Origin: Gemmobacter megaterium
Lineage (GTDB): Bacteria; Pseudomonadota; Alphaproteobacteria; Rhodobacterales; Rhodobacteraceae
Reading direction: 5' to 3'
DNA: 64,000 nt
Assembly: GCF_900156815.1 (NCBI RefSeq)
Contig: NZ_FTOT01000002.1
Coordinates: 558,001 to 622,000 of the forward strand
The notes under the pieces are model-generated. The model was given only the letters and a program-made list of their open reading frames with translations. It had not been told where the DNA came from and ran no database searches. Below are positions 3,003 to 14,612 of this stretch, piece after piece. The position numbers and the translations under genes are program-made. How positions within the stretch are numbered: the stretch's first letter is position 1; each line of letters begins with the position of its first letter.

Positions 3003-3508
3003 GCACCCTTCGTCTGATTCTGACCCGCCACGCCAAATCCAGTTGGGATGATCCCACCGTCGCAGACCACGACCGCCCGCTGAATGCGCGCGGCATCCGG
3101 GCGGCGGGGTTGATCGGGGGCTGGCTGGCCTCGCGCGGGGATGTGCCGGGGGAAGTGTTGTGCTCTGATGCTGCCCGCACCCGCGAAACCTGGGAGCGGA
3201 TCGCTCCCCATCTGCCCGGCACGCCGGAGGCCACGCTGAAACCCGCGCTGTACCATGCCGGGCCCGACGTGATGCTTGCTGTGCTGCGCAGCGCCACCGC
3301 GCCCGTGGTCATGATGCTGGGCCACAACCCCGGCATCGCGGAATTTGCCGAACGCCTGCTGGCCCGCGCCCCGGCCGACCCCGAGTTCCGCCGCTATCCC
3401 AGCGGCGCCACCCTGGTGGCCACCTTCGAGGCCGCGCGCTGGCAGGATGTCGCTTTCGGCACCGGGTCGGTGCTGGATTTCGTGGCACCGCGCAGCCTCG
3501 AAGGCTGA
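2999..3508 (+). CDS. SixA-like histidine phosphatase
   Basis: A 169-residue histidine phosphatase. The RHG-type catalytic motif appears as LTRHAKSSWDD near residue 8-18 (His10 as phospho-acceptor) and the second catalytic His sits in MMLGHNPGIAEFAE. The form RHAKS plus a short length matches SixA phosphohistidine phosphatases rather than phosphoglycerate mutases. The ATG overlaps the preceding stop by 4 bases (ATGA), making it the third gene of the argB transcript. The substrate is not known. Confidence 0.85.
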   Translation: MSTLRLILTRHAKSSWDDPTVADHDRPLNARGIRAAGLIGGWLASRGDVPGEVLCSDAARTRETWERIAPHLPGTPEATLKPALYHAGPDVMLAVLRSATAPVVMMLGHNPGIAEFAERLLARAPADPEFRRYPSGATLVATFEAARWQDVAFGTGSVLDFVAPRSLEG

Positions 3509-3541
3509 TCCGTTCACGCCCGATCACGATTTCCCGAGGTT

Positions 3542-3597
3542 TTCTCTGGACACGCCCCGCTCTGCCCCACAAAGAGGCAAGTGGGGAAACCAGAGAA
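3542..3597 (+). other. Nested hairpin in the leader of the SARP regulator
   Basis: Two nested inverted repeats lie just upstream of the regulator at 3616: TTCTCTGG (3542-3549) pairs with CCAGAGAA (3590-3597), and inside it CCCCAC (3565-3570) pairs with GTGGGG (3581-3586). There is no U-tract, so it is not a convincing terminator of the phosphatase gene. It could be an operator or a structured 5' leader. Confidence 0.4.
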
Positions 3598-3615
3598 GAC
3601 ACGAGAGGACGGCAG

Positions 3616-5613
3616 ATGGCGGGCGACCCTGGCCAGGCCGGCACCGACGGCGCCCTGCTGCGTCTGTCGCTACTGGGTGGGTGTGACATCGCGGGGGCCG
3701 ACGGGCAATCGCTGCATCTTGCATCCCGCAAGGCCAAGGCGGTGCTGGCGGTGCTGGCCCTGTCTGACGGCATGGCTCTGGGCCGCGACCGGCTTTGTGG
3801 TCTGCTCTGGGCCGAAGCGGCCGAAGATCAGGCCCGCGCCTCGCTTCGTCAATGCCTCAAGCTGATCCGCCAGGCCCTGGGCGCACAGGCAGAGCCGGTC
3901 ATCAAGGCCGACCGGCTGACCATGGCGCTTGATCGTGCGGGCGTCGATCTTGACGTGACGCGCCTGCTGGACCGCCTGGCCAAGGCCGACCTGACCGATC
4001 CCGCGCTTTTGCAGCCGATGCTGCACGAAAGCCTGCTTGCAGGGTTCGACGGCATCGACCCCGGCTTTGATGCCTGGCTGGCCGTGTGGCGCGAAACGCT
4101 GCGCCGCCGTGTGCAGGCGGTGCTGGAAACCGCCATGACCGCCGATCCGTCCAGCGAGCGCCAGGAACAGGCGGCCCAGGCGCTGCTCGCCCTCGATCCC
4201 GCGCATGAGCCCGCCTTGCGCGCCCTGATGCGCCACCGTGCCGGGCGCGGCGACCGCGCGGGCGCCCTGCGCGAGTTCGAGACCTTCCGCGCCCGCCTGC
4301 TGGCCGACTATGACGCCGAACCCGATTCCGACACGCTGGATCTGCACGCCACCCTCAGGGACGACACGCCCCGCCCGGTGCAGGCAGCTGCCCAGCCCAT
4401 GCCCGCACCAGCCCCCGCAGGCAGCGTCACCGTGATCGCAGTTGCGGAAACGCTGTCGGGCGATACCGAGGCGGATGCGGCCTGCCGGTCCTTTGGATTG
4501 GCGCTGCGCGGAATGCTGGCACGGTTCCGCCACTGGACGGTGATCGCGGCCCCGCCCGACGCCGAACCCGCCCTGCCCCCCGGCAGCCATGTGCTGCGTC
4601 TGACCCCCCTGCCCAGTGCGGGCGGCTTGTCGCTCTCGGTCGTTCTGGCAGGCGCCGGGCCGCAGGGCGCGACGATCTGGACCCAGATGGCCGACATCTC
4701 CACCGCCCGCACAATGGCCAGCCAGGAAGCGGTCTTGCGCGGCATCTGCGGGGCGCTGGATGTCTACCTGTCACAGGCCCGCCTGTCGCAGTTGCGCCTG
4801 CGCGAGCCGCACAGCCTGAACGCGCTTGAAAAATGGATGCGCGGCCAACAGTTGATGGACCAATGGGATCCGACCGCTGACAGCCGGGCCGAAACCATGT
4901 TTCTCGAAGCGATCCACGCCTGGCCCGATCACCCGACGCTGCTGGCCAATCTGGCCGATCTCTACAACTCACGCCACATCGTCTATCCCGGTGTGCGTCG
5001 CCGCCCCGAGCTGGAACGCAAGGCGATGCAGCTTGCACGCCGCGCCGTCGCGCTCGATCCGCTGGATCCGCGCTGCCACGTCACGCTGGGCTGGTCGCTG
5101 GCCATGGCCGGGCGCTTTGAACAGGCCGGACACAGCTTTCTGCGCGGGCACGAACTGAATCCGGCAGACCCCGCCATCGCCATGTCTGCGGCCCACGGCA
5201 TGGGGGTGCTCGACCGGCTTTCGGATTCGCTACGCCTGTGCAAGGCAGCCTTCGACTGCCACCCCGCCCCGCCCTGGACCTTCTGGGGCTTTGAATCCAA
5301 CCTGCTGTTCCTGGCGGGAGAGTATGACGGCGCCGTGCGCTCTGCCGATCGTTCGGGCGAGGTCAAGGCCAATATCCTCGGCTGGAAATGCGCGGCCCTT
5401 GGTATGCTGGGCGACCCTCGGGCACGGGGCGACGCGCAGGAATTCCTTGACCGCATCCGCGAGGCATGGACCGCCGACAGCCCACCGACCGATGCCGAGG
5501 CGATTTCCTGGTTCGTCGATATCTTCCCCTTCGCCCGCCCCGCCCAACGCGCCCATCTGTGCGAAGGTCTGTCCCGCGCGGGTTTGCCGGTGCCGGATAG
5601 CGCGGCACGTTAG
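3616..5613 (+). CDS. SARP/BTAD transcriptional activator with TPR C-terminus
   Basis: A 665-residue regulator. Residues about 15-90 form an OmpR-type winged helix of the SARP class (LSLLGGCDI, then [14 protein letters not shown] and RDRLCGLLWAEAAEDQARASLRQ). Residues about 95-245 are the all-helical BTAD domain. After a proline/alanine linker (250-275) comes an alpha/beta region resembling the TolB-N-like part of CadC-type regulators, then TPR-like helices from about 395 to the end. SARP proteins usually activate secondary-metabolite clusters. It sits beside the YcaO/peroxidase genes and converges on them, so it is the obvious candidate regulator. No receiver or membrane segment is present. 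Confidence 0.85.
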   Translation: MAGDPGQAGTDGALLRLSLLGGCDIAGADGQSLHLASRKAKAVLAVLALSDGMALGRDRLCGLLWAEAAEDQARASLRQCLKLIRQALGAQAEPVIKADRLTMALDRAGVDLDVTRLLDRLAKADLTDPALLQPMLHESLLAGFDGIDPGFDAWLAVWRETLRRRVQAVLETAMTADPSSERQEQAAQALLALDPAHEPALRALMRHRAGRGDRAGALREFETFRARLLADYDAEPDSDTLDLHATLRDDTPRPVQAAAQPMPAPAPAGSVTVIAVAETLSGDTEADAACRSFGLALRGMLARFRHWTVIAAPPDAEPALPPGSHVLRLTPLPSAGGLSLSVVLAGAGPQGATIWTQMADISTARTMASQEAVLRGICGALDVYLSQARLSQLRLREPHSLNALEKWMRGQQLMDQWDPTADSRAETMFLEAIHAWPDHPTLLANLADLYNSRHIVYPGVRRRPELERKAMQLARRAVALDPLDPRCHVTLGWSLAMAGRFEQAGHSFLRGHELNPADPAIAMSAAHGMGVLDRLSDSLRLCKAAFDCHPAPPWTFWGFESNLLFLAGEYDGAVRSADRSGEVKANILGWKCAALGMLGDPRARGDAQEFLDRIREAWTADSPPTDAEAISWFVDIFPFARPAQRAHLCEGLSRAGLPVPDSAAR

Positions 5614-5738
5614 GCCGTGCCGTGCCAGGCTGGCGCGCGCACCCCTGACTCTGATCCGATTGTTTCGCGGGATGAATTGGCCTGAATGGCCAAGATTGGG
5701 GCAGTCGCCCGCCCATCCAAGGCAGCAGATGCAACCGA

Positions 5739-5774
5739 AACCGCCCGGCATCCCTTGCGGGATACCGGGCGGTT
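5739..5774. terminator. Strong hairpin between convergent genes
   Basis: Left arm 5739-5754 and right arm 5759-5774 pair over 16 positions with one mismatch around a TTGC loop. It lies in the 302-base gap between the SARP gene and the converging small gene at 5916, and could terminate either strand, although no U-tract follows. Nothing else coding was seen in 5614-5915. Confidence 0.5.
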
Positions 5775-5915
5775 GCCCCAGGGCGGGGAGGGGAGCCACA
5801 CCCATCCCCGAGGCGATGGCCGTCGGGGCGCGCCTGCCCCTTGGCCTAATGAATAGATGAAAATGTCTGCCTGAAATGGCACCCGCCGCTGGGGACGGCG
5901 GTGTTCCGGGCCTGC

Positions 5916-6395
5916 CTAGCGACAGTAGTTGAGCGTGTAATCGCCCACCCGGAATTCATAAAACTGCTCTTCGGTCAGGCCCGCGTTGCCCTCGACCCAT
6001 TCCTTGTATTGCGGCGGCAACGGGTAATCGCCACCCGGCTGACGGAACCGGCACACCGCCGCCAAGGCCATTTCGGGGCTGGGATACATCGCGATGAAGG
6101 TCTTGGCCGGACGCGGCTCGAACCGGATCGCCCAATCCGCCGGAACGGGAATGCCCAGATCGTCCAGCACCTCGCGCATCACCGGCTCCGGCACTGCTGC
6201 CGGGTCCAACTCGCCCAGCGCCAGTTTCAGGATCAGACGGCCAAAGCGGGCAAAGGCATGGGAATCCGGCACCTGCATCAGCAGCGACGGGTCGGCTTGC
6301 GTACAATCCAGCGCATAGTCCTGCGAGAGAATCTCGATGACCTGTTCCTTGGTCAGCGGGGCGGGCGGGGCGTTGTTTTCCTGTTGGTCGTTCAT
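5916..6395 (-). CDS. Hypothetical protein with nitrile-hydratase-leader-like segment
   Basis: A 159-residue soluble protein. The start at 6395 is chosen over upstream in-frame codons because AAGGA lies about 8 bases before it. Residues 70-109 (VMREVLDDLGIPVPADWAI, then FEPRPAKTFIAMYPS) follow the pattern seen in NHLP leader peptides of RiPP precursors: an LGI-x-x-P turn, a strand rich in charged and hydrophobic residues, then a P-x-K-T strand ending in P. The C-terminal 50 residues hold only Cys115 and Cys158 and no obvious core. It is the last gene of the amidase/peroxidase operon. It may be a modified substrate of the nearby YcaO protein, or an unrelated small subunit; I cannot decide. Confidence 0.6.
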   Translation of the reverse strand: MNDQQENNAPPAPLTKEQVIEILSQDYALDCTQADPSLLMQVPDSHAFARFGRLILKLALGELDPAAVPEPVMREVLDDLGIPVPADWAIRFEPRPAKTFIAMYPSPEMALAAVCRFRQPGGDYPLPPQYKEWVEGNAGLTEEQFYEFRVGDYTLNYCR

Positions 6396-6481
6396 ACGTG
6401 CATCCTTCCGTTTCGCGCCTTGTTTGTGCGTTGCATGTGCAACGGGCATCCGGGCGGCGCGTGCCCGGTGCTACTGTTCGG

Positions 6482-8161
6482 TCATCCTGCGGCAAAATCC
6501 ACAAGTTCAGGCATCGTGGCGGGCATACCGGGCCCGGACGGGTAAAGTTCGCGCCACAACAGGGCGGCAGCGTCATCAAGGCTGGCCTCGCCGCCAAAAC
6601 CGGGATCGGCCAGCGCCGCGGCAAAGGTTTCGGCCACAACCAGACCGCCGACCGGCCCCAGCCGCTCTCCCGCCCCGAAATGCCGGGCTTCGGCCAGAAT
6701 GTAGAAGAACAACGGTGTACGCTGCGACAGAAAGCCGATGTCGGCCTCTGTCACACAGCGTTCCCCGATACAGCCCGCCGTGCGCCCAGTCCGCAGGATA
6801 TGGTCCAGTGCCGCCTGCGGCAGCACCTCAGTCGGGGCAATCTTGCCTGCCTGAACCAGATGCCGCGCCAACGCCTGTCCGGTTGGCAGCCGCGCCATCA
6901 GCCCCTTGGCCATGGTTCGCCACCCCAGCCCCAGACGATGCCCGGCCAGACCGGGCAGATCGGCGGGCGGCGCGACGCGGGTCGCCGCATGGCGGCGCAG
7001 CGGCTCGGCAATGGTGGGACCAAGCGGGCGGGCGCGGTTCATGCGCGGATTGGCCGCCTGCCCTGTCAATGGATCGAAGAACAGCGACCAGTCGATCACC
7101 CAGGTGTCATCGGCAGGCAGATCGCGGGTCGGATGCAGGCCGAAAAAATCCATCAACCGCTCCAGCCGGGCCGGACCCGACGGGCCGGACCCGGAATGCA
7201 CCGCGCTGAACTCATAAACCGGCTGCACCATCGCGTGCCCAAAGCGCAGCACCGCCAGCGCCGCCTCCAGCCCCACGGGACCGGCGGTGGCAGGGGTCGC
7301 CAGCCGGGCCAGCGCGGATGGCGGCAACAGACGCGGCAGAAAATCCCCGCGCAGGATCTGGCGGTAGATCGCGGTCAACATGCAGCGCGCCGCCTCGAAG
7401 GGGCGGGCGAACAGCCGGTTGTGCGCCCGTCCCGATGCCGCATGATCCTGCGCCGCATCATACAGGCGGTTGTGCGTCTTCATCAGCAACACGACCAGTT
7501 GGCTGACGATCAGGTTGTCGGCATTACGTGTATCGGCCAGCAAAGGGTCGAACCGCGTGTCGCCGGGGGCTGCCCCCAGTTCGGGGCCCAGTGGCAGGCG
7601 GGGAATGTCCTCTTGCCGGGTCGGATGGCCGCGTAGTGCCGGATCGCCGCTGCTGTCACGCATCCAGCCCAGCCGGAACCGGGCCCGATGCTCGGTCGCG
7701 TCCGTCGGCTCGAAAAAGGCCGGGCTTCCAGCGGGGCCGCCACCGTAAAGCGATGCCAGATCCAGCGCCGCGCTCTGGATGTTGCCGAACTGGCGGCGCG
7801 GCAGGTTGCGGTCCAGCGTGGTGCGGAAACTGGCGGTATTGACCAGATCATGGATGGCGAACTGCGCAAGATAGGTATAGCCCGCCGGCAGATCGCCCAG
7901 GCTGCCCGTCAGCTTCAGCGCGCCGACATGCATCTGCGTCGACAACCGCGCAAGCATGTCCAGCAGTTCGGGCAGCGCGACACCGGTCGCAGGATCGTCC
8001 AGCAGATCTTCGGGGGCATAGTCGAACATCGGCTCATAGCGGTCAAAGCCCGGCAAGGGCTCTGCCCGCGATGCAGGCGGCTGCGCGGCAAGACGCAGCC
8101 ATTCCTGAAAGACCAGATCGAATCCCTGCCCGTGGCGCATTGTGTGTTCCGTTTCCTTCAC
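6482..8161 (-). CDS. Animal-type haem peroxidase
   Basis: A 559-residue member of the animal haem peroxidase superfamily. The distal haem motif is LAQFAIHDLV, with Gln100 and His104; NADNLIVSQ and MKTHNRLYD (about 213-234) match the conserved helix before the proximal site; the proximal His309 lies in LRFGHAMVQP. No signal peptide or membrane segment is visible, so it is predicted cytoplasmic or exported without a signal. It would oxidise an organic or halide substrate with peroxide. The GTG at 8161 overlaps the stop of the amidase-fold gene (GTGA); ATG at 8140 is an alternative start. The operon partners suggest a role in tailoring or defence. Confidence 0.85.
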   Translation of the reverse strand: MKETEHTMRHGQGFDLVFQEWLRLAAQPPASRAEPLPGFDRYEPMFDYAPEDLLDDPATGVALPELLDMLARLSTQMHVGALKLTGSLGDLPAGYTYLAQFAIHDLVNTASFRTTLDRNLPRRQFGNIQSAALDLASLYGGGPAGSPAFFEPTDATEHRARFRLGWMRDSSGDPALRGHPTRQEDIPRLPLGPELGAAPGDTRFDPLLADTRNADNLIVSQLVVLLMKTHNRLYDAAQDHAASGRAHNRLFARPFEAARCMLTAIYRQILRGDFLPRLLPPSALARLATPATAGPVGLEAALAVLRFGHAMVQPVYEFSAVHSGSGPSGPARLERLMDFFGLHPTRDLPADDTWVIDWSLFFDPLTGQAANPRMNRARPLGPTIAEPLRRHAATRVAPPADLPGLAGHRLGLGWRTMAKGLMARLPTGQALARHLVQAGKIAPTEVLPQAALDHILRTGRTAGCIGERCVTEADIGFLSQRTPLFFYILAEARHFGAGERLGPVGGLVVAETFAAALADPGFGGEASLDDAAALLWRELYPSGPGMPATMPELVDFAAG

Positions 8162-8838
8162 ATCGTCCGCAGCGTCGCTTCCGGCGGCGCGGGACTATCC
8201 AACAGCACAAGCGGCGTTGCGCGGGCGACCAGCACGGGCAGATCGGCCGGCGGAACCCCCACCACCAGATGCCGCACCCGCCCCCAGTCCAGCAACGACG
8301 CCGGACAGGCAGGATCAATCTCCGACCGGCAAATGACCTGACCCAACGCAGGGTAACGCGCCCACAGGTGGCGTATCAACTGCGCCAAGGCCAGGGTCTG
8401 CCACCCCGATGGGGCGACATCGGGCGCCTGCGGGCTGGCGGCAACAAGGACCGACAGGGTGACATGGTTCAGGCGCGGCTTGCCGCCTGCAAGGGCCGGA
8501 TGCGCCAGTCGGGCGGGAAGATGCCGCGCCGCGCGCCCCTCGGGCGCCGCGGCCCACAGGAACCGGCCATGCTGATCCTCGCCCTCTGCGGGGATGATCC
8601 AGTGCCAACTGGCCCGCCCGGCCTGCATCAGCGCCAACGCCTGATCGGTTCCCGTGCTGCGCGCGCAATGCACCACCAGCGCCTCGACCCCGAACACAGG
8701 ATCCCCGGCCTGACGCAGGGTTGACTGCTTCCAGACCGAGCGGATACCGGGATAGGCCTCGACGGCCACGGGCGCACTCAGCGGGCGCTGCGCGGCGGGA
8801 AGGGAAAACTGGCGGACACTCACACGGCTCATGTACAT
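8158..8838 (-). CDS. Degenerate amidase_2-fold (PGRP/T7-lysozyme-like) protein
   Basis: A 226-residue protein whose middle follows the zinc amidase_2 fold: VEALVVHCARS (His57, as in T7 lysozyme), WHWIIP (77-83), LNHVTLSVLVA (123-133), a helix ending ARYPALGQVICRSEID, and PACPASLLDW (Cys178). In active amidases the segment before the C-terminal Asp/Cys ligand carries a His; here it is Arg171. Two of three zinc ligands remain, so the protein is probably not a normal peptidoglycan amidase. It may be a binding protein or have altered chemistry. It is the first gene of the minus operon and overlaps the peroxidase start. AAAGG lies 6-7 bases before the ATG at 8838. Confidence 0.6.
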   Translation of the reverse strand: MYMSRVSVRQFSLPAAQRPLSAPVAVEAYPGIRSVWKQSTLRQAGDPVFGVEALVVHCARSTGTDQALALMQAGRASWHWIIPAEGEDQHGRFLWAAAPEGRAARHLPARLAHPALAGGKPRLNHVTLSVLVAASPQAPDVAPSGWQTLALAQLIRHLWARYPALGQVICRSEIDPACPASLLDWGRVRHLVVGVPPADLPVLVARATPLVLLDSPAPPEATLRTM

Positions 8839-8905
8839 ATCGGGCCTTTCACGGGGCGGAACACCGGATCACCATCCGGCACCGGAACTGCGATTCGCAT
8901 AGGTC

Positions 8906-8927
8906 GCGTGATTGCAGCGTGATTGCA
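8906..8927. promoter_or_regulatory. 11-bp tandem repeat in divergent promoter
   Basis: GCGTGATTGCA occurs twice head-to-tail (8906-8916 and 8917-8927) in the 109-base gap between the minus operon start (8838) and the YcaO start (8948). SARP regulators are known to bind direct repeats with an 11-bp period, so this is a candidate binding site for the regulator at 3616. A GCGAAT hexamer about 8 bases downstream on the minus strand (8893-8898) could be the -10 of the minus operon. The repeat is observed; the binding is inferred. Confidence 0.55.
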
Positions 8928-8947
8928 CGACAGCACAGGAGCAGCGG

Positions 8948-9958
8948 ATGCAGCCACAGGACTTTGCACAGGCCGCTGCGGCCTTGCGCGCTGGTGCCGC
9001 GCTGGTCGATGTGCCGGGGTTTCCCGGCGGTCTGGGTCAGGGCATGGCCGCGCTGGCCGCACTCGCCGCCGGGTGCAGCCATCTGTTCCTGGCCCGCCCC
9101 CCGATGGCCCCCGGCGCTGTCCTGTGCGGGGCGAGCCATGTGCCGCAGCCGGGCCTGCGCGCCCATGCCGCTGGTCTGGGGCCGACGCCGCAGGCCGCCT
9201 TTGCCCGCGCGATGGGCGAAGTCGCGGAAACGCGCGCCTTGTACCGCAGCCCCGGCGACCCACGGATCGACATGGCGGACACCCTGCCCTTGCTGGGCGC
9301 GGAACTGCGCCCGTCAGGCAGAATTCCGGCGCATGGCCTGCTGCGCGACGCGGACCGCAATGCCCATGGCAATGGCCTTGGCGCGGGCCATGACGTGACC
9401 ATGGCCGCCAGCGCCGCCTGGCGCGAGGCTGTCGAGCGACATGCCATCGCCGTCTGGTTCCGCAACCAGGCGCCCGCCGTTCCCCTGCCCTCGCCTGCCG
9501 CAGCGCAGCGACTGGAATCCGCGCTGCGGCGCAACTTCAAGGCGGAGCCGTTGCGATACCTTCTGTTGCCGGGCGCCGTGCCGGGGCTGGTCGTCGTCGT
9601 GGCATTGTCCGAAGGGACATGGGGCTGCCTGCCCGGATATGGCTGTGCCCCGACCGCAGCCGAAGCCGCCTGCAAGGCCGCTACAGAAGCCGTGATGGGG
9701 GAATTCGCACTGTATCTGGAACATCGCGCCAGAACCGAAGAGGGGCGCGCACCACCGGCGCAGGGCTTTACCGCCCGTGCCGCGATGCTGGCCACCCGAA
9801 CCGATCTGACCCAGCCCCCCGCAGGCGGCGCACTGATGACAGGCGCAGCGCGGCAACCGGCCTTTGCGGATCTGACCGTTGCGGATGATGGCCTTGTGGT
9901 CCTGCGCAGCGTGACGCCGGGCCTGCTCTACCCGGACGAAACACCCGGCCCGGTCTAG
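8948..9958 (+). CDS. YcaO-domain protein
   Basis: A 336-residue protein with the three blocks of the YcaO fold: GPTPQAAFARAMGEVAETRA (about 78-97, E91xxE94), GNGLGAGHDVTMAASAAWREAVERHA (141-166, E160xxE163) and GYGCAPTAAEAACKAATEAVMGEF (230-253). YcaO enzymes use ATP to activate backbone amides in azole, thioamide or amidine formation on peptides. The third block lacks the usual Q-x-R after the Glu (M-x-E here), so ATP use may be altered. No ThiF-like partner, TfuA or dehydrogenase is adjacent. AGGAG at 8938-8942 supports the ATG at 8948. It is divergent from the amidase/peroxidase operon. Confidence 0.78.
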   Translation: MQPQDFAQAAAALRAGAALVDVPGFPGGLGQGMAALAALAAGCSHLFLARPPMAPGAVLCGASHVPQPGLRAHAAGLGPTPQAAFARAMGEVAETRALYRSPGDPRIDMADTLPLLGAELRPSGRIPAHGLLRDADRNAHGNGLGAGHDVTMAASAAWREAVERHAIAVWFRNQAPAVPLPSPAAAQRLESALRRNFKAEPLRYLLLPGAVPGLVVVVALSEGTWGCLPGYGCAPTAAEAACKAATEAVMGEFALYLEHRARTEEGRAPPAQGFTARAAMLATRTDLTQPPAGGALMTGAARQPAFADLTVADDGLVVLRSVTPGLLYPDETPGPV

Positions 9959-10032
9959 GGCCGGACAGCCCAAGTGGTGCATCGGCCTTGAGAACACCGG
10001 CCATGCCCGACGGCACCAGCCGACAGGCCATG

Positions 10033-10048
10033 CCCCCGGTTCCGGGGG
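10033..10048 (+). terminator. GC hairpin downstream of the YcaO gene
   Basis: CCCCCGG (10033-10039) and CCGGGGG (10042-10048) face each other 75 bases after the YcaO stop. The loop is very short and there is no clear U-tract, so this is at best a weak terminator. The gap 9959-10120 holds no gene that I can see. Confidence 0.3.
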
Positions 10049-10120
10049 GGATGCAGTCACAGCATTTCACGTTAGGTTGAACCGATCGCGAATCGACGAC
10101 ACATCCTCACCAGGCTCCAA

Positions 10121-12277
10121 ATGCCACGCTGGCTGAACACCCCGATCACGCTGCCTTTGACGGCGCTCGCCCTTGGCCTGCTGATGGCGGCGATCACCGT
10201 CGCGCTGACCCTTGGCCAACCGTGGATGGGCCTGCGCCTGGCCGCGAGCCCCGAGGAGAATGCGGTCGTGATCACGGCCGTTGCGCCAACCGGCCCTGCG
10301 GCCCAGGCCGGGGCGCAGCCCGGCGCGGTGCTGGTCGCGCTGAACGGCATTGCCCTCGAAGCCGACGACCTGATCGAGGAACCCGACATGATCGAGTCCT
10401 TCGATGCCTTCGCGCGGTTCATCGCGCGGCAGGATCGTCTGGCCCAACAGCTTCAGGGCGGGGGAAGCATCCTGATCGCGCTGGACGAAGACGAGGCGCG
10501 CGCGTTGCACCCCGCCCCGCTGCGCCCGTTGCAAACCTTGCCCGCCGCCTTCTGGGCGCAGGTGCTGGTCGGGTTGTTCGGATTCGTTGCCGGAAGCTGG
10601 GTTCTGGGATTGCGGCGCAGCCGGGCGGCGGCGTTCCTATGGCTGGCAGGCGTGGGATTGCTGCTGTCAGCCCACGCAGCGGCGATCTACTCGGCGCGGG
10701 AACTCGCCTTGCCGGGCGCGCAGTTCCAGATGCTCTCGTCGCTCAACCATCTTGGCGCGCTTGGGTTCGGGGCGGGAATGATCGGCCTGTTTCTGTGCTA
10801 CCCGGTCCGTCTGGTTCCGTCGCGCTGGCAATTCCTGCCCGGCATTGCGCTGCTGATCTGGTGGGGGGCGAACCAACTTCGGCTGTTGCCCACCCCGGCT
10901 CTGGGGTTCCAACTGCCGGTGGCACTGGCACTGGCCGCCATCGCGGTCTGCGTCGCGCTGCAATACCGCGCCACACGGACCGATCCGCGCGCACGTGCCG
11001 CGCTGCGCTGGCTGGGACTGGCGGTCCTGATCGGCGCCGGGGCCTTTGTGATGACGATCATCGTGCCGATCCTGCTGGGATTCGATGCGCCGTTGTCACA
11101 GGGATTTGCCTTTCTGTTCTTCTTGCCGATCTATGCGGGCCTGGCGCTTGGCGTGGCCCGCTATCGGCTGTTCGAACTGGAGGACTGGGCCTTTCGCATC
11201 CTGTTCTATCTGGCAGGCATGGTGATGCTGCTGGTGCTGGATGCCTCGTTGATCGCCCTGATCGCGATGGATCGCGCCCCGGCCTTTGGCCTGTCGCTGC
11301 TGGCGGTCAGCCTGCTGTACCTTCCGTTGCGTGACGACATCGGGCGGCGCCTGCTGCGACGGCGCAACGACGTGTCCGGCCAAATGTTCCGGGCGATCAC
11401 CGATGTCGCGCTGACCCCGCCGGACACCTCGCGGATCGAACGGTGGCAGGCGCTGCTGACCGCCAGTTTCGACCCGCTTCGCATCGAACCCATGGCCGAG
11501 ACCCCGCCACATGTCAGGCTGGCCGAGGAAGGCTCCGTTCTGGAAATTCCCGCCGTGGACACGCTGCCACCGCAACGGCTGGTCTGGGCGCGGGGCGGGC
11601 GGGCCTTGTATTCGCTCCATGATCTGGCGCGCGCCGAAGAGATGGTGACAATGCTGGATCAGGCGGCCGCCAGCCGTCGCGCCTATGAAATGGGGGCCGC
11701 CGAAGAGCGCGCCAGGATCGCACAGGACATGCACGATAACATCGGCATCCAGTTGACCGGCGCACTGCATTCCGGCTCTGCCGCCCGCAAAGACGCGCTG
11801 ATCCGCGAAACGCTGAGCGACCTGCGCGACATCATCTCGAATGCCAATCGTGCCGATCTGGAACTGGAAGAGTTGCTCGCCGATCTGCGTGCAACCATGG
11901 GCGAGCATCTTTCGTCTGTCGGCATCGCGCTGGACTGGAAAGTAGTCGGGGCCGGCCCCTCCCGCTCGGAGCCACGCCAGGCCCATGCGCTGCGGTCCAT
12001 CCTGCGCGAGGCGGTCAGCAACGCCCTGCGCCATTCCGGCGCGTCGCAGGTGCGGGTCCGTGTGCGGATTTCCCCCGACGCGGTGCATGTCTCCGTCGAG
12101 GACAATGGCCGCGGCATCGGCGATGCCATCCCACAACCGGGCGGCGGAAACGGCCTGTCCAACATGCGCGCGCGTGCCAACGGGATGGGGGGCGAGGTCA
12201 TCATCACCGAGATCCCCGGTGGAGGAACGCGCGTGGAGGCGGTTTTGCCCATGGCATCGGCAGGAAAAGCAGCATGA
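10121..12277 (+). CDS. Membrane sensor histidine kinase (NarX/LiaS class, PDZ-like sensor)
   Basis: A 718-residue kinase. One transmembrane segment (about 10-32) is followed by a periplasmic PDZ-like stretch (GPAAQAGAQPGAVLVALNGI, 63-82), then about eight further membrane helices (145-425). The cytosolic part has a HisKA_3 helix with EERARIAQDMHDNIG (phospho-acceptor His538) and an HATPase domain (LREAVSNALRH, DNGRGIG, GNGLSNMRARA). The kinase class pairs with LuxR-type regulators, and the next gene is one, overlapping by 4 bases. The ligand is unknown. It lies directly after the YcaO gene, but no sequence evidence ties the two. Confidence 0.9.
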   Translation: MPRWLNTPITLPLTALALGLLMAAITVALTLGQPWMGLRLAASPEENAVVITAVAPTGPAAQAGAQPGAVLVALNGIALEADDLIEEPDMIESFDAFARFIARQDRLAQQLQGGGSILIALDEDEARALHPAPLRPLQTLPAAFWAQVLVGLFGFVAGSWVLGLRRSRAAAFLWLAGVGLLLSAHAAAIYSARELALPGAQFQMLSSLNHLGALGFGAGMIGLFLCYPVRLVPSRWQFLPGIALLIWWGANQLRLLPTPALGFQLPVALALAAIAVCVALQYRATRTDPRARAALRWLGLAVLIGAGAFVMTIIVPILLGFDAPLSQGFAFLFFLPIYAGLALGVARYRLFELEDWAFRILFYLAGMVMLLVLDASLIALIAMDRAPAFGLSLLAVSLLYLPLRDDIGRRLLRRRNDVSGQMFRAITDVALTPPDTSRIERWQALLTASFDPLRIEPMAETPPHVRLAEEGSVLEIPAVDTLPPQRLVWARGGRALYSLHDLARAEEMVTMLDQAAASRRAYEMGAAEERARIAQDMHDNIGIQLTGALHSGSAARKDALIRETLSDLRDIISNANRADLELEELLADLRATMGEHLSSVGIALDWKVVGAGPSRSEPRQAHALRSILREAVSNALRHSGASQVRVRVRISPDAVHVSVEDNGRGIGDAIPQPGGGNGLSNMRARANGMGGEVIITEIPGGGTRVEAVLPMASAGKAA

Positions 12278-12924
12278 GATCCGTCCTGATCGTAGAGGAC
12301 GTTGCGGAAACCCGCCGCTGGCTGGGGGGGATCGTGCACAGGGCCTTTCCAGAGGCACAACTGGTCGAGGCATCGACCCTGCGGATGGCACAAGGGTTGT
12401 TGCGCGAAAGCTTCGACCTGGCGCTGATCGACCTTGGCCTGCCCGACGGTAGCGGGCTGGACGTGCTGCGCGCCCTGCGCAATCAGCAAAGCGGGGCGCT
12501 GTGTGTCGTCACGACGGCGATGGGGGACGATGCCAGCATCGTGGCCGCCTTGTCATCCGGGGCGGATGGCTATCTGCTGAAAGAACAGCCTGCCGAAGTG
12601 CTCTCCCGGCAACTGCTGCAACTTGCGATCGGGGTTCCGGCACTGTCCCCCGCAGTCGCCCGGCGGATCATGGAGCATTTTCGCCTGACCGGACCTGCGG
12701 CGCCGCCGGACACCGGCCTGACCCAGCGCGAAACCGAAGTGCTGGGCCTGATCGGTCGCGGAATGCGCAACGTCGAGGTGGCGGCAGAGCTTGGCCTCGC
12801 CGAAACGACGGTGGCCGGGTACATCAAGGCAATCTACCGCAAACTCGGTATCTCCTCGCGCGCCGAAGCGTCCTGGCACGCCACACGGATGGGGCTGGGG
12901 GCGCGGCCTCATGGCGACGACTGA
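12274..12924 (+). CDS. NarL/FixJ-family response regulator
   Basis: A 216-residue two-domain regulator. The receiver has the acidic pair Glu8/Asp9, phospho-acceptor Asp53 (LALIDLGLPDG) and the conserved Lys in LLKEQ. The C-terminal LuxR-type helix-turn-helix reads TQRETEVLGLIGRG through NVEVAAELGLAETTVAGYIKAIYRKLG. The ATG overlaps the kinase stop, so they form a cognate two-component pair. Target genes are not shown by the sequence. Confidence 0.93.
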   Translation: MRSVLIVEDVAETRRWLGGIVHRAFPEAQLVEASTLRMAQGLLRESFDLALIDLGLPDGSGLDVLRALRNQQSGALCVVTTAMGDDASIVAALSSGADGYLLKEQPAEVLSRQLLQLAIGVPALSPAVARRIMEHFRLTGPAAPPDTGLTQRETEVLGLIGRGMRNVEVAAELGLAETTVAGYIKAIYRKLGISSRAEASWHATRMGLGARPHGDD

Positions 12925-12960
12925 TCCCGCCGACGACGACCGCCCCCGCATCGGCGGCGG

Positions 12961-13770
12961 CTATTCACCCAGACTGTTCAGCGCGCGTTGCATCAGGGCA
13001 TCCAGCCCAAGACGCGCCTGATCCGCAACCGCGACATAGGCGTCCAGCATCGGTTCTGCCGACGGAACGGCCTGCACGATGGCGGGCGCCTGCGCATACA
13101 GCCCCCAGGCCAGAACAGCCAGCAAAAGCATCAGCCCGAAGCCCAGGCGGAACCCCGCGCGGCGTAGTTCGGGTGGTTCGGGCACATGAACAGCAGCTTC
13201 GCCCCGGCGCGAGGCGGAACTGGCGTTCAAGGTTGAATTGATGGCCTCTATGTCCGGCAGCAATTCGCGCCGGGCCGCGCGATTGGACAACGACGGCGCA
13301 GAGGGGGCCTCGGCCGTCGCCTCGCCCTCGTCCGGATCCTGCGCACGCGGGCGGATCCGCAGGCGCGACGGTTCCGCATCGGTCAGCCCCAGCTCTGGCT
13401 GGGTTTCCAGACTGCGAGCTGCGGCGCGGGCGGCCTCCTCGGCGCGGGCTCTGGTCTCGCGCTCGGCCTCTTCGCGCAGCACGGCCAGCATGGATTCGTC
13501 CAGAGAATGACGCCGGAGAACCTGCGGATCTTCGATATCGGGCTCAGGGGCCGACCCCAGATCCGGCTCGGGTTCCGGTTCCGGCTCAGGCACCACAGGC
13601 GGATCCGCCATCACGGCCAGATCGACAAGTTCCTCGTCCGCCTCGGTCATGTCGGGAGGTTGGAACCACACATGGCCGCAGGCAGAACATTGCACATCCC
13701 GCCCTTCGGCTGGTATCAACGCTGCATCCACCTCGTACTGGGCGTCGCAATTCGGGCAGATCAATCGCAT
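12961..13770 (-). CDS. MJ0042-type zinc-ribbon membrane protein
   Basis: A 269-residue protein beginning MRLICPNC. Cys5, Cys8, Cys28 and Cys31 form an MJ0042-type zinc ribbon. Residues about 45-165 are acidic, proline-rich and low in complexity, and one membrane helix (FRLGFGLMLLLAVLAWGLY) lies near 210-230. The start at 13770 is chosen because the ribbon motif begins there; codons upstream give a non-conserved extension. The gene is divergent from ftsE, an arrangement often seen in Rhodobacterales. Its function is unknown; a link to division or envelope is only suggested by position. Confidence 0.85.
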   Translation of the reverse strand: MRLICPNCDAQYEVDAALIPAEGRDVQCSACGHVWFQPPDMTEADEELVDLAVMADPPVVPEPEPEPEPDLGSAPEPDIEDPQVLRRHSLDESMLAVLREEAERETRARAEEAARAAARSLETQPELGLTDAEPSRLRIRPRAQDPDEGEATAEAPSAPSLSNRAARRELLPDIEAINSTLNASSASRRGEAAVHVPEPPELRRAGFRLGFGLMLLLAVLAWGLYAQAPAIVQAVPSAEPMLDAYVAVADQARLGLDALMQRALNSLGE

Positions 13771-13940
13771 CGGCCTGTGTCCCCACTCGTGCTGCCCGGC
13801 CCTTGTGGCAGCGCCCCTTATGGTCTGTTGTATCAAGGGAATGTCCAGGCTTCCAGTATTCCCAACACCTTTGCGCCAGTGATTGCAACGCCGGACGCCA
13901 CGGGCCATTCTGCCCCCGCCTGATTCGCAAAGGGGCCAGC

Positions 13941-14612
13941 GTGATTTCGTTCGACAAGGTAGGGTACAGCTATGGCGGGGGCGAGTTGCTGTCGGAGATC
14001 TCGCTGACATTGTCGCCGGGATCGTTCCACTTTCTGACCGGGCCCTCGGGGGCGGGCAAGACCACGTTCCTCAAGCTGTGTTACGCCGAGCTTTTGCCCA
14101 CTGCCGGGCGCTTGACCCTGTTCGACGGCGAGGCCCGCGGATTGTCGCGCGATGACGTCGCCATGGTGCGCCGCCGCATCGGTGTCGTGCATCAGGATTG
14201 CCAGTTCCTGGATCACCTGCCGGTGGCGGCCAATGTGGCGCTGCCGCTGACGGTGACGGGCAAGGACGCCGAAGTCGCCGATCTGCAGGATCTGCTGACA
14301 TGGGTGGGCCTGCGCCCGCTGGCCGATGCGCTGCCCCCCTCGCTGTCGGGGGGCGAACGGCAGCGAGCCGCCGTGGCCCGCGCCGTGATCATGTCGCCCG
14401 ATGTGATCCTTGCGGACGAACCGACCGGCAACCTCGACTGGGAAATGTCGCAGCGGCTGCTGCGGCTGTTTTTGGAGTTGAACCGCATGGGCAAGACCAT
14501 CGTGATCGCAACCCATGACATGAACCTGATCCGCACCGCCAAGGGCCAGGTCGCCGCGCGCGTGCTGCGCATCCAGAACCGGCGCGTCCAACTGGCGGGG
14601 GCCGATCTGTGA
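13941..14612 (+). CDS. ftsE: Cell division ATP-binding protein FtsE
   Basis: A 223-residue ABC ATPase with Walker A GPSGAGKTT (about 35-43), signature LSGGERQRAAVARA, Walker B VILADEPTGNL and the switch His in IATHDMN. FtsE with FtsX controls septal peptidoglycan hydrolysis from the inner membrane. The GTG start at 13941 is preferred because the protein then begins MISFDKVGYSY like other FtsE proteins and an AAAGGGG site precedes it. The stop overlaps the GTG of ftsX by 4 bases. Confidence 0.94.
   Translation: MISFDKVGYSYGGGELLSEISLTLSPGSFHFLTGPSGAGKTTFLKLCYAELLPTAGRLTLFDGEARGLSRDDVAMVRRRIGVVHQDCQFLDHLPVAANVALPLTVTGKDAEVADLQDLLTWVGLRPLADALPPSLSGGERQRAAVARAVIMSPDVILADEPTGNLDWEMSQRLLRLFLELNRMGKTIVIATHDMNLIRTAKGQVAARVLRIQNRRVQLAGADL

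Follow-up and report, generated by a model that had tools for sequence, protein, structure and literature searches.

YcaO enzymes form azolines, thioamides and amidines together with flavin enzymes, TfuA or E1-like partners, and the radical-SAM maturation of mycofactocin and pyrroloquinoline quinone (PQQ) gives one fixed product from a small precursor whose core or C-terminal residues do not vary. In the present study, we analyzed an island in a stretch of 64,000 nucleotides from Gemmobacter megaterium (contig NZ_FTOT01000002.1, positions 558,001 to 622,000; the window), in which genes for a YcaO protein, an animal-type haem peroxidase, a regulator of the Streptomyces antibiotic regulatory protein (SARP) type and a small protein lie together; these four genes are called the module here, and L, G and f numbers are our handles for loci, genomes and families. 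The original prediction for this DNA was a small modified-peptide system with a peroxidase tailoring step. The proteusins and other azole-containing ribosomally synthesized and post-translationally modified peptides (RiPPs) with a nitrile hydratase-like leader peptide (NHLP), such as MprE with the YcaO enzyme MprC and the oxidase MprD, or nostatin with NstC/NstD, likewise combine a YcaO enzyme and an oxidising partner with a small protein that has a structured NHLP-like leader and a cysteine in its C-terminal part, as far as the excerpts of PMC12455567 and PMC10858898 describe them. However, the island has a haem peroxidase in place of the flavin oxidase and a constant instead of a variable tail, and its small protein has neither a visible double-glycine boundary nor a match to the curated NHLP model.

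The cyclodehydratases of the classical thiazole/oxazole-modified microcins (TOMMs) and cyanobactins (LynD, TruD) share the YcaO fold, and the YcaO of one variant locus (L035) matched LynD at E 3e-49; the module YcaO carries the ExxER motif, but no E1-like or leader-binding partner and no SagB-type dehydrogenase were found with it. In YcaO-TfuA thioamide systems, as in the module, YcaO stands beside a SARP- or cyclase-type TPR regulator (L090-L092), but TfuA was not found with the module. These negative results come from phmmer searches with five queries (TfuA and E1-like, two each; SagB, one); neither the window nor any of the 15 module and variant loci was matched, although a very divergent partner could escape such searches; as a positive control, the donor loci were matched, and TfuA was detected at L090-L092. 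The original statement that no standard azole partner is present thus agrees with the five queries. Compared by analogy with mycofactocin and PQQ, the enzymes of the island would be a YcaO and a haem peroxidase instead of radical-SAM enzymes. The peroxidase has the fold family and the haem-site residues in common with other bacterial animal-type haem peroxidases (PDB 8s6c; the myeloperoxidase family), but the module enzymes form a separate clade tied to YcaO and the small protein. Open-licence literature searches found no description of a YcaO-haem peroxidase system, and the terms "peroxidase" and "SARP" do not occur in the available part of PMC4603692. The island resembles an NHLP-led YcaO pathway but, by these comparisons, does not qualify as a classical proteusin, TOMM or YcaO-TfuA system, and it is apparently a dedicated, undescribed way of modifying the tail of a small protein.

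The four genes are one co-inherited system: they recur jointly at 14 loci in at least seven alphaproteobacterial families, so the co-occurrence in other genomes on which the original prediction depended is borne out. These loci, defined by the small-protein family, are the window, L036, L037, L022, L023, L024, L025, L043, L045 and L102-L106 (families f1, f93, f96, f128, f171, f174 and f179, plus Mesorhizobium, to which no family code was assigned); L002 and L036 are apparently one record and were counted once. The order peroxidase-small protein-SARP, with the three genes adjacent and the small-protein and SARP genes convergent, is kept in all 14. YcaO lies behind SARP on the same strand in nine loci (L022-L025, L102, where it is broken, and L103-L106), on the opposite strand in L045 and on the peroxidase side in the three loci of the window genus, and in L043, where the start of SARP is 166 bases from the contig end, it is off the contig. 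YcaO is thus beside the block, intact or as far as the contig runs, in 12 of the 14, being broken in G919 and off the contig in G634. Seven loci found through the small protein alone form an unbiased subset (G130, G634, G839, G854, G919, G896 and G908); SARP and peroxidase were adjacent in every one, with YcaO intact in five, broken in one and beyond the contig end in one. In G130, the peroxidase and the small protein are fused in a single reading frame of 663 residues.

With the window sequences, YcaO was matched at E 1e-6 in one of 248 genomes of the family, and seemed isolated until the other genes were used as queries. The small protein was matched in two of 248, and the peroxidase was matched in 13 of 289 genomes of the class, at 15 places, one of which (G284:C33) was left out when surroundings were compared. 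All four genes were found together in G130 (L022), G342 (L023), G345 (L024) and G479 (L025). A seven-row profile of the small protein matched four of 385 class genomes, none of them new, and finds G342, G345 and G479 by construction because it contains their rows; it also matched two of 18 genomes in the family of G342, adding G634, and one of 23 in the family of G479, with none new. A nine-row profile matched six of 398 genomes of the phylum, all six in the window's class (the number of the 398 from outside the class is not given), and five new genomes (G839, G854, G919, G896 and G908) have peroxidase, small protein, SARP and YcaO in the same order. In tblastn searches of plasmids, neither the window YcaO nor the small proteins of the window and L025 found a match; all four genes are carried by a Mesorhizobium huakuii plasmid (strain NZP2235), to which the L023 YcaO led. 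Pairwise identity between genera is 18-51% across the four proteins in the compared loci.

The small protein matched nothing in Pfam (E up to 1) or NCBIfam, which includes the NHLP leader model TIGR03793 (E up to 10), and a sequence search of the PDB gave three weak, unrelated matches (best E 0.21). It matches no curated family, and a match to a family without leader character, which would have spoken against the original prediction, is absent. The 14 members nevertheless form a coherent family, in which every genus was recovered by a profile built without that genus, at E values from 1.2e-6 (L024) to 1e-36 (Z 5000). The L024 protein was initially chosen by its tail motif and position, and the 1.2e-6 was obtained later with the profile that excludes it. 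P105, Y124, P127, Y130, R149, D152, Y153 and C158 are invariant in all 14, and T154 is kept in 13; Y124, P127 and Y130 belong to a YPxPxxY motif. The tail has the pattern R..DY...C, with the cysteine second to last in 13 members and third to last in L024. Among 173 coding-like open reading frames of the fetched loci, a background that may contain the fused module gene, one has a penultimate cysteine and three have a cysteine within the last three residues. The leader varies while the tail stays constant, which is the reverse of the antibiotic-type RiPP pattern; it suggests one fixed product and not a diversifying antibiotic.

An NHLP leader had been proposed at residues 70-109 of the small protein. 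When the 14 sequences were aligned by hhalign with true NHLPs, collected using TIGR03793, window residues 49-117 were matched with a probability of 73% (P 3.1e-5) and a score of 34.7; none of 200 column shuffles scored as high, the best reaching 16.9. Thus, the proposed segment lies inside a remotely similar stretch, although the curated model itself found nothing there. An alignment of nine small proteins with 11 NHLPs had given a probability of 21% (P 0.001), with a score of 26.5 compared with at most 23.7 in the shuffles (0 of 200 as high), 13.0 for the reversed alignment and no more than 18.0 for unrelated alignment segments. The rows of the window genus and the remaining rows gave the same NHLP register (scores 23.8 and 23.4). 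The match of the small protein to the NHLP of L035 was weak with nine rows and with 14 (2% and 5.5%), and in a single comparison a Thalassospira marina "thiocillin family RiPP" leader matched the window protein by BLASTP at E 6e-5. The predicted model of the small protein (predicted local distance difference test [pLDDT] 81, predicted template modelling score [pTM] 0.68) has helices at residues 45-59, 70-79 and 107-118; that of the fused G130 protein, which is weak (pLDDT 61) and too weak for placement of the tail, has helices at 549-560 and 570-576, strands at 590-592 and 600-602, and a helix at 607-617. By eye, this order agrees with that of the NHLP published in PMC10858898, which begins with helices, continues through two strands and a proline-rich part, and closes with one more helix. 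Judged from sequence comparison, the small protein is likely a remote homolog of NHLP leaders, and known NHLP leaders dock on YcaO enzymes, according to the excerpt of PMC12455567. At L078 (positions 3384-7107, genome G282), seven NHLP-type precursor genes stand in a row, several of them with differing core ends.

The YcaO, animal-type haem peroxidase and SARP assignments of the original prediction all passed the Pfam cut-offs. The ExxER ATP motif is kept in all 13 YcaO proteins examined. In an unrooted tree from which L102 (YcaO broken) and L037 (YcaO cut by the contig end) were left out, 10 of 11 module YcaOs form a clade with branch support of 98/99. A PxPxP end is the motif of the classical TOMM and cyanobactin YcaOs, and none of the 13 C-termini has it. 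At L090-L092, where YcaO and TfuA lie beside a SARP- or cyclase-type TPR regulator, no module peroxidase was found in the fetched stretch. On the Paracoccus plasmids L090 (8098-8658) and L091 (5733-6230), a hypothetical protein with C-terminal RGMS(V/I) repeats adjoins the cyclase/TPR regulator, YcaO and TfuA; it has the look of a further RiPP precursor, one in which the core is repeated.

In the peroxidase, Q100, H104, D105 and H309, which we take to be the haem-site residues, are invariant in seven aligned rows, and the R..H block around H309 is present in 16 of 16 peroxidases. The peroxidase profile matched the chain named lactoperoxidase (8s6c) and myeloperoxidases. The peroxidase tree, likewise unrooted, has a branch (98/89) that separates all 14 module enzymes from 12 other peroxidases and the two variants, and at nine other peroxidase places (L026-L034, of which L029 and L032 are short contigs) there was no match to the module YcaO profile. 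A vanadium-chloroperoxidase-like gene (VCPO_N, PAP2) adjoins the haem peroxidase at L025 (6513-8165), and L106 (13092-14858, genome G908) has a second haem peroxidase near YcaO, outside the module clade. Between the window and L036, omega of all seven island genes is 0.08 to 0.30, indicating purifying selection (YcaO 0.26, peroxidase 0.17, small protein 0.20, amidase-like protein 0.21, SARP 0.155).

One possible explanation, which we hold with moderate confidence, is that the four genes encode a SARP-switched system for protein or peptide modification, in which YcaO activates the tail of the small protein, the peroxidase oxidises it and one fixed product results. The NHLP-like region would dock the small protein on YcaO, which with ATP would activate a backbone amide of the tail, most probably that preceding the invariant cysteine near the C-terminus, and an azoline or a related change would follow. 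The peroxidase, standing in place of the flavin dehydrogenase of azole pathways, might then oxidise the tail, by converting the azoline to an azole or by acting on the thiol or the invariant tyrosine of the tail. The product would be a single structure with a set job, such as a cofactor, a signal, a metal ligand or a protein-bound redox group. The G130 fusion, and an island without a protease or exporter, speak somewhat for a product that remains attached to the protein. A bolder version is tentative: the haem peroxidase would work with its own YcaO-modified tail, fused to it in G130, as an NHLP-led, protein-derived cofactor or signal with the constant R..DYT...C and a SARP switch, which would be a new class of modification. 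If YcaO activation with peroxidase oxidation is true, YcaO has a new oxidising partner and yields one fixed structure instead of a library; if the product is protein-bound, the system would merit separate classification. It lends itself to direct testing, since neither the two enzymes nor the candidate substrate, with the end presumed to be modified, are long, and all of them occur in named strains such as Gemmobacter nectariphilus DSM 15620 and M. huakuii NZP2235.

Several observations weigh against this proposal. The small-protein alignment shows no double-glycine (GG-type) boundary, and the Pfam scan found no peptidase or exporter among the island genes. In the YcaO block next to ExxER, glutamine is replaced with methionine in the window genus, histidine in L023 and glycine in L044; the Mesorhizobium YcaO falls outside the module clade. 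Single small-protein rows are mostly weak against NHLPs (L022, L023 and L024 scored 11-12, the noise level), the match to one thiocillin-type leader dropped from 38% to 15% as rows were added, and TIGR03793 matched none of eight small proteins at E up to 10. Foldseek with the small-protein model gave no match at E 0.001 and five unrelated ones at E up to 10, with no NHLP or nitrile hydratase alpha fold among them; the VIA search likewise found none. Furthermore, in G919 (L102, about 11650-13000) the YcaO frame is broken while the peroxidase, small protein and SARP frames are open, and thus YcaO may be dispensable. This last case, and the G130 fusion, which fits a subunit as well as a substrate, lead to an alternative that we regard as unlikely, in which the small protein serves the peroxidase as a subunit or activator, its cysteine tail reaching the active site of that enzyme or a redox partner. 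The substrate of YcaO would then be the peroxidase or some other protein of the cell, as is reported for YcaO enzymes acting on uL16 or McrA. The adjacency of small protein and peroxidase in 14 of 14 loci, the conserved tail and an island without a gene for cleavage or export would all suit a subunit; its NHLP-like middle would not, nor would two variant loci that keep YcaO and peroxidase with other cysteine-ending small proteins. L044 (a plasmid of Rhodobacteraceae bacterium QY30) has a peroxidase, a guanylate-cyclase/BTAD/TPR regulator and YcaO, and directly after the peroxidase (3710-4276) a protein that is unrelated to the small-protein family, shows EF-hand similarity below the threshold and ends in TRCR. 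At L035 (G522), YcaO and a peroxidase are accompanied by a cyclase/TPR regulator and by a small protein that has a clear NHLP alignment (probability 85%, P 6e-6) and an RSCASC end. A small protein ending in cysteine is therefore a common companion of YcaO and peroxidase, and a swap of this kind is what one would predict for a substrate tail but not for a fixed subunit.

If the tail is instead modified and then cut off, it could give a small cofactor or signal on the model of mycofactocin or PQQ, in the window genus sensed by a PDZ kinase and a LuxR-type regulator. Constant C-terminal residues, the kinase/regulator pair within the island and a dedicated SARP in all 14 loci fit this idea, but the island lacks a protease or exporter and the kinase pair is confined to the window genus, and we consider it quite unlikely. 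It is more improbable again that YcaO and the regulator are one unit, and the peroxidase and small protein another without a common substrate (for example, for peroxide defence). The SARP- or cyclase-type TPR regulators that stand beside YcaO and TfuA at L090-L092, where the module peroxidase was not found, would be in line with two units; however, no block is tighter than peroxidase-small protein-SARP (14 of 14), module clades exist for YcaO and for peroxidase alike, and L026-L034, two of them short contigs, gave no match to the module YcaO profile. That unrelated genes became neighbours by chance has a negligible probability: YcaO in one of 248 genomes of the window family and in no plasmid record might suggest it, but the same block in 14 loci of at least seven families rules out chance clustering.

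The features of the island are collected in Table 1.

Table 1. Features of the island in the window, with positions in the window
Feature	Position	Strand	Evidence or remark
Whole island	3509..12960		from sixA to the 12961-14010 gene; missing en bloc from two congeners
SARP-type regulator, BTAD + TPR	3616..5613	+	PF03704 (BTAD), E 1.8e-7, above cut-off
Small protein, 159 aa, candidate precursor (NHLP-like leader and constant tail)	5916..6395	-	14-member family
Constant C-terminal tail RVGDYTLNYCR, residues 149-159, candidate modified core	5919..5951	-	family alignment
Cys158 codon of the small protein	5922-5924	-	within the constant tail
YPLPPQY motif, small protein residues 124-130	6006..6026	-	Y124, P127 and Y130 invariant in 14/14
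NHLP-like leader region, small protein residues 48-118	6042..6254	-	hhalign against true NHLPs
Animal-type haem peroxidase	6482..8161	-	PF03098, E 7.3e-7, above cut-off
Amidase_2-like protein, genus-specific, accessory	8158..8838	-	E 0.0024, 18.7 bits, under the cut-off of 26
YcaO, 336 aa	8948..9958	+	PF02624, E 1.5e-12, above cut-off, two stretches
PDZ / HisKA_3 histidine kinase	10121..12277	+	Pfam; island member in the window genus only
LuxR-type response regulator	12274..12924	+	Pfam; four-base overlap with the kinase gene; also in L036

In the window, seven genes (from open reading frames and Pfam) lie between sixA, which ends at 3508, and the gene at 12961-14010. In the congeners G234 (L087) and G248 (L088), sixA is followed directly by a relative of the latter gene, which places the limits of the island in the genus at about 3509-12960, and none of the seven island proteins had a match in the fetched stretches of these two genomes. 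The island is also present in the congener G249, and YcaO in three of five genomes of the genus. We infer that the 9.4-kb segment was gained or lost as one piece. A scan for promoters and terminators yielded no more than in shuffles.

Three features go beyond the original prediction: the invariant tail, the fused peroxidase-small protein gene and the island's kinase/regulator pair. The amidase-fold gene, which the prediction had counted as a member of the system, was dismissed as a core part, since it occurs in only three of the 14 loci, all of the window genus. As to an amidase fold with a changed zinc ligand, the Amidase_2 match is below the cut-off and a PDB search with the protein gave no match; an alignment of the three sequences, judged by eye, suggests that the zinc positions are not all kept. 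At the columns that presumably correspond to the zinc ligands, the first histidine is kept, the second position is arginine (CRSEID) in all three and the third is cysteine or threonine; the protein is probably without zinc catalysis. The kinase and regulator genes are present in the window and L036 and were not found in the other module and variant loci, among which L037 is cut short by its contig end. This pair (10121-12924) is a possible sensor of the product. At L023, a gene for a kumamolisin-type protease (5710-7302) adjoins the module, and an S53 peptidase is likewise found in a Thalassospira NHLP/YcaO cluster.

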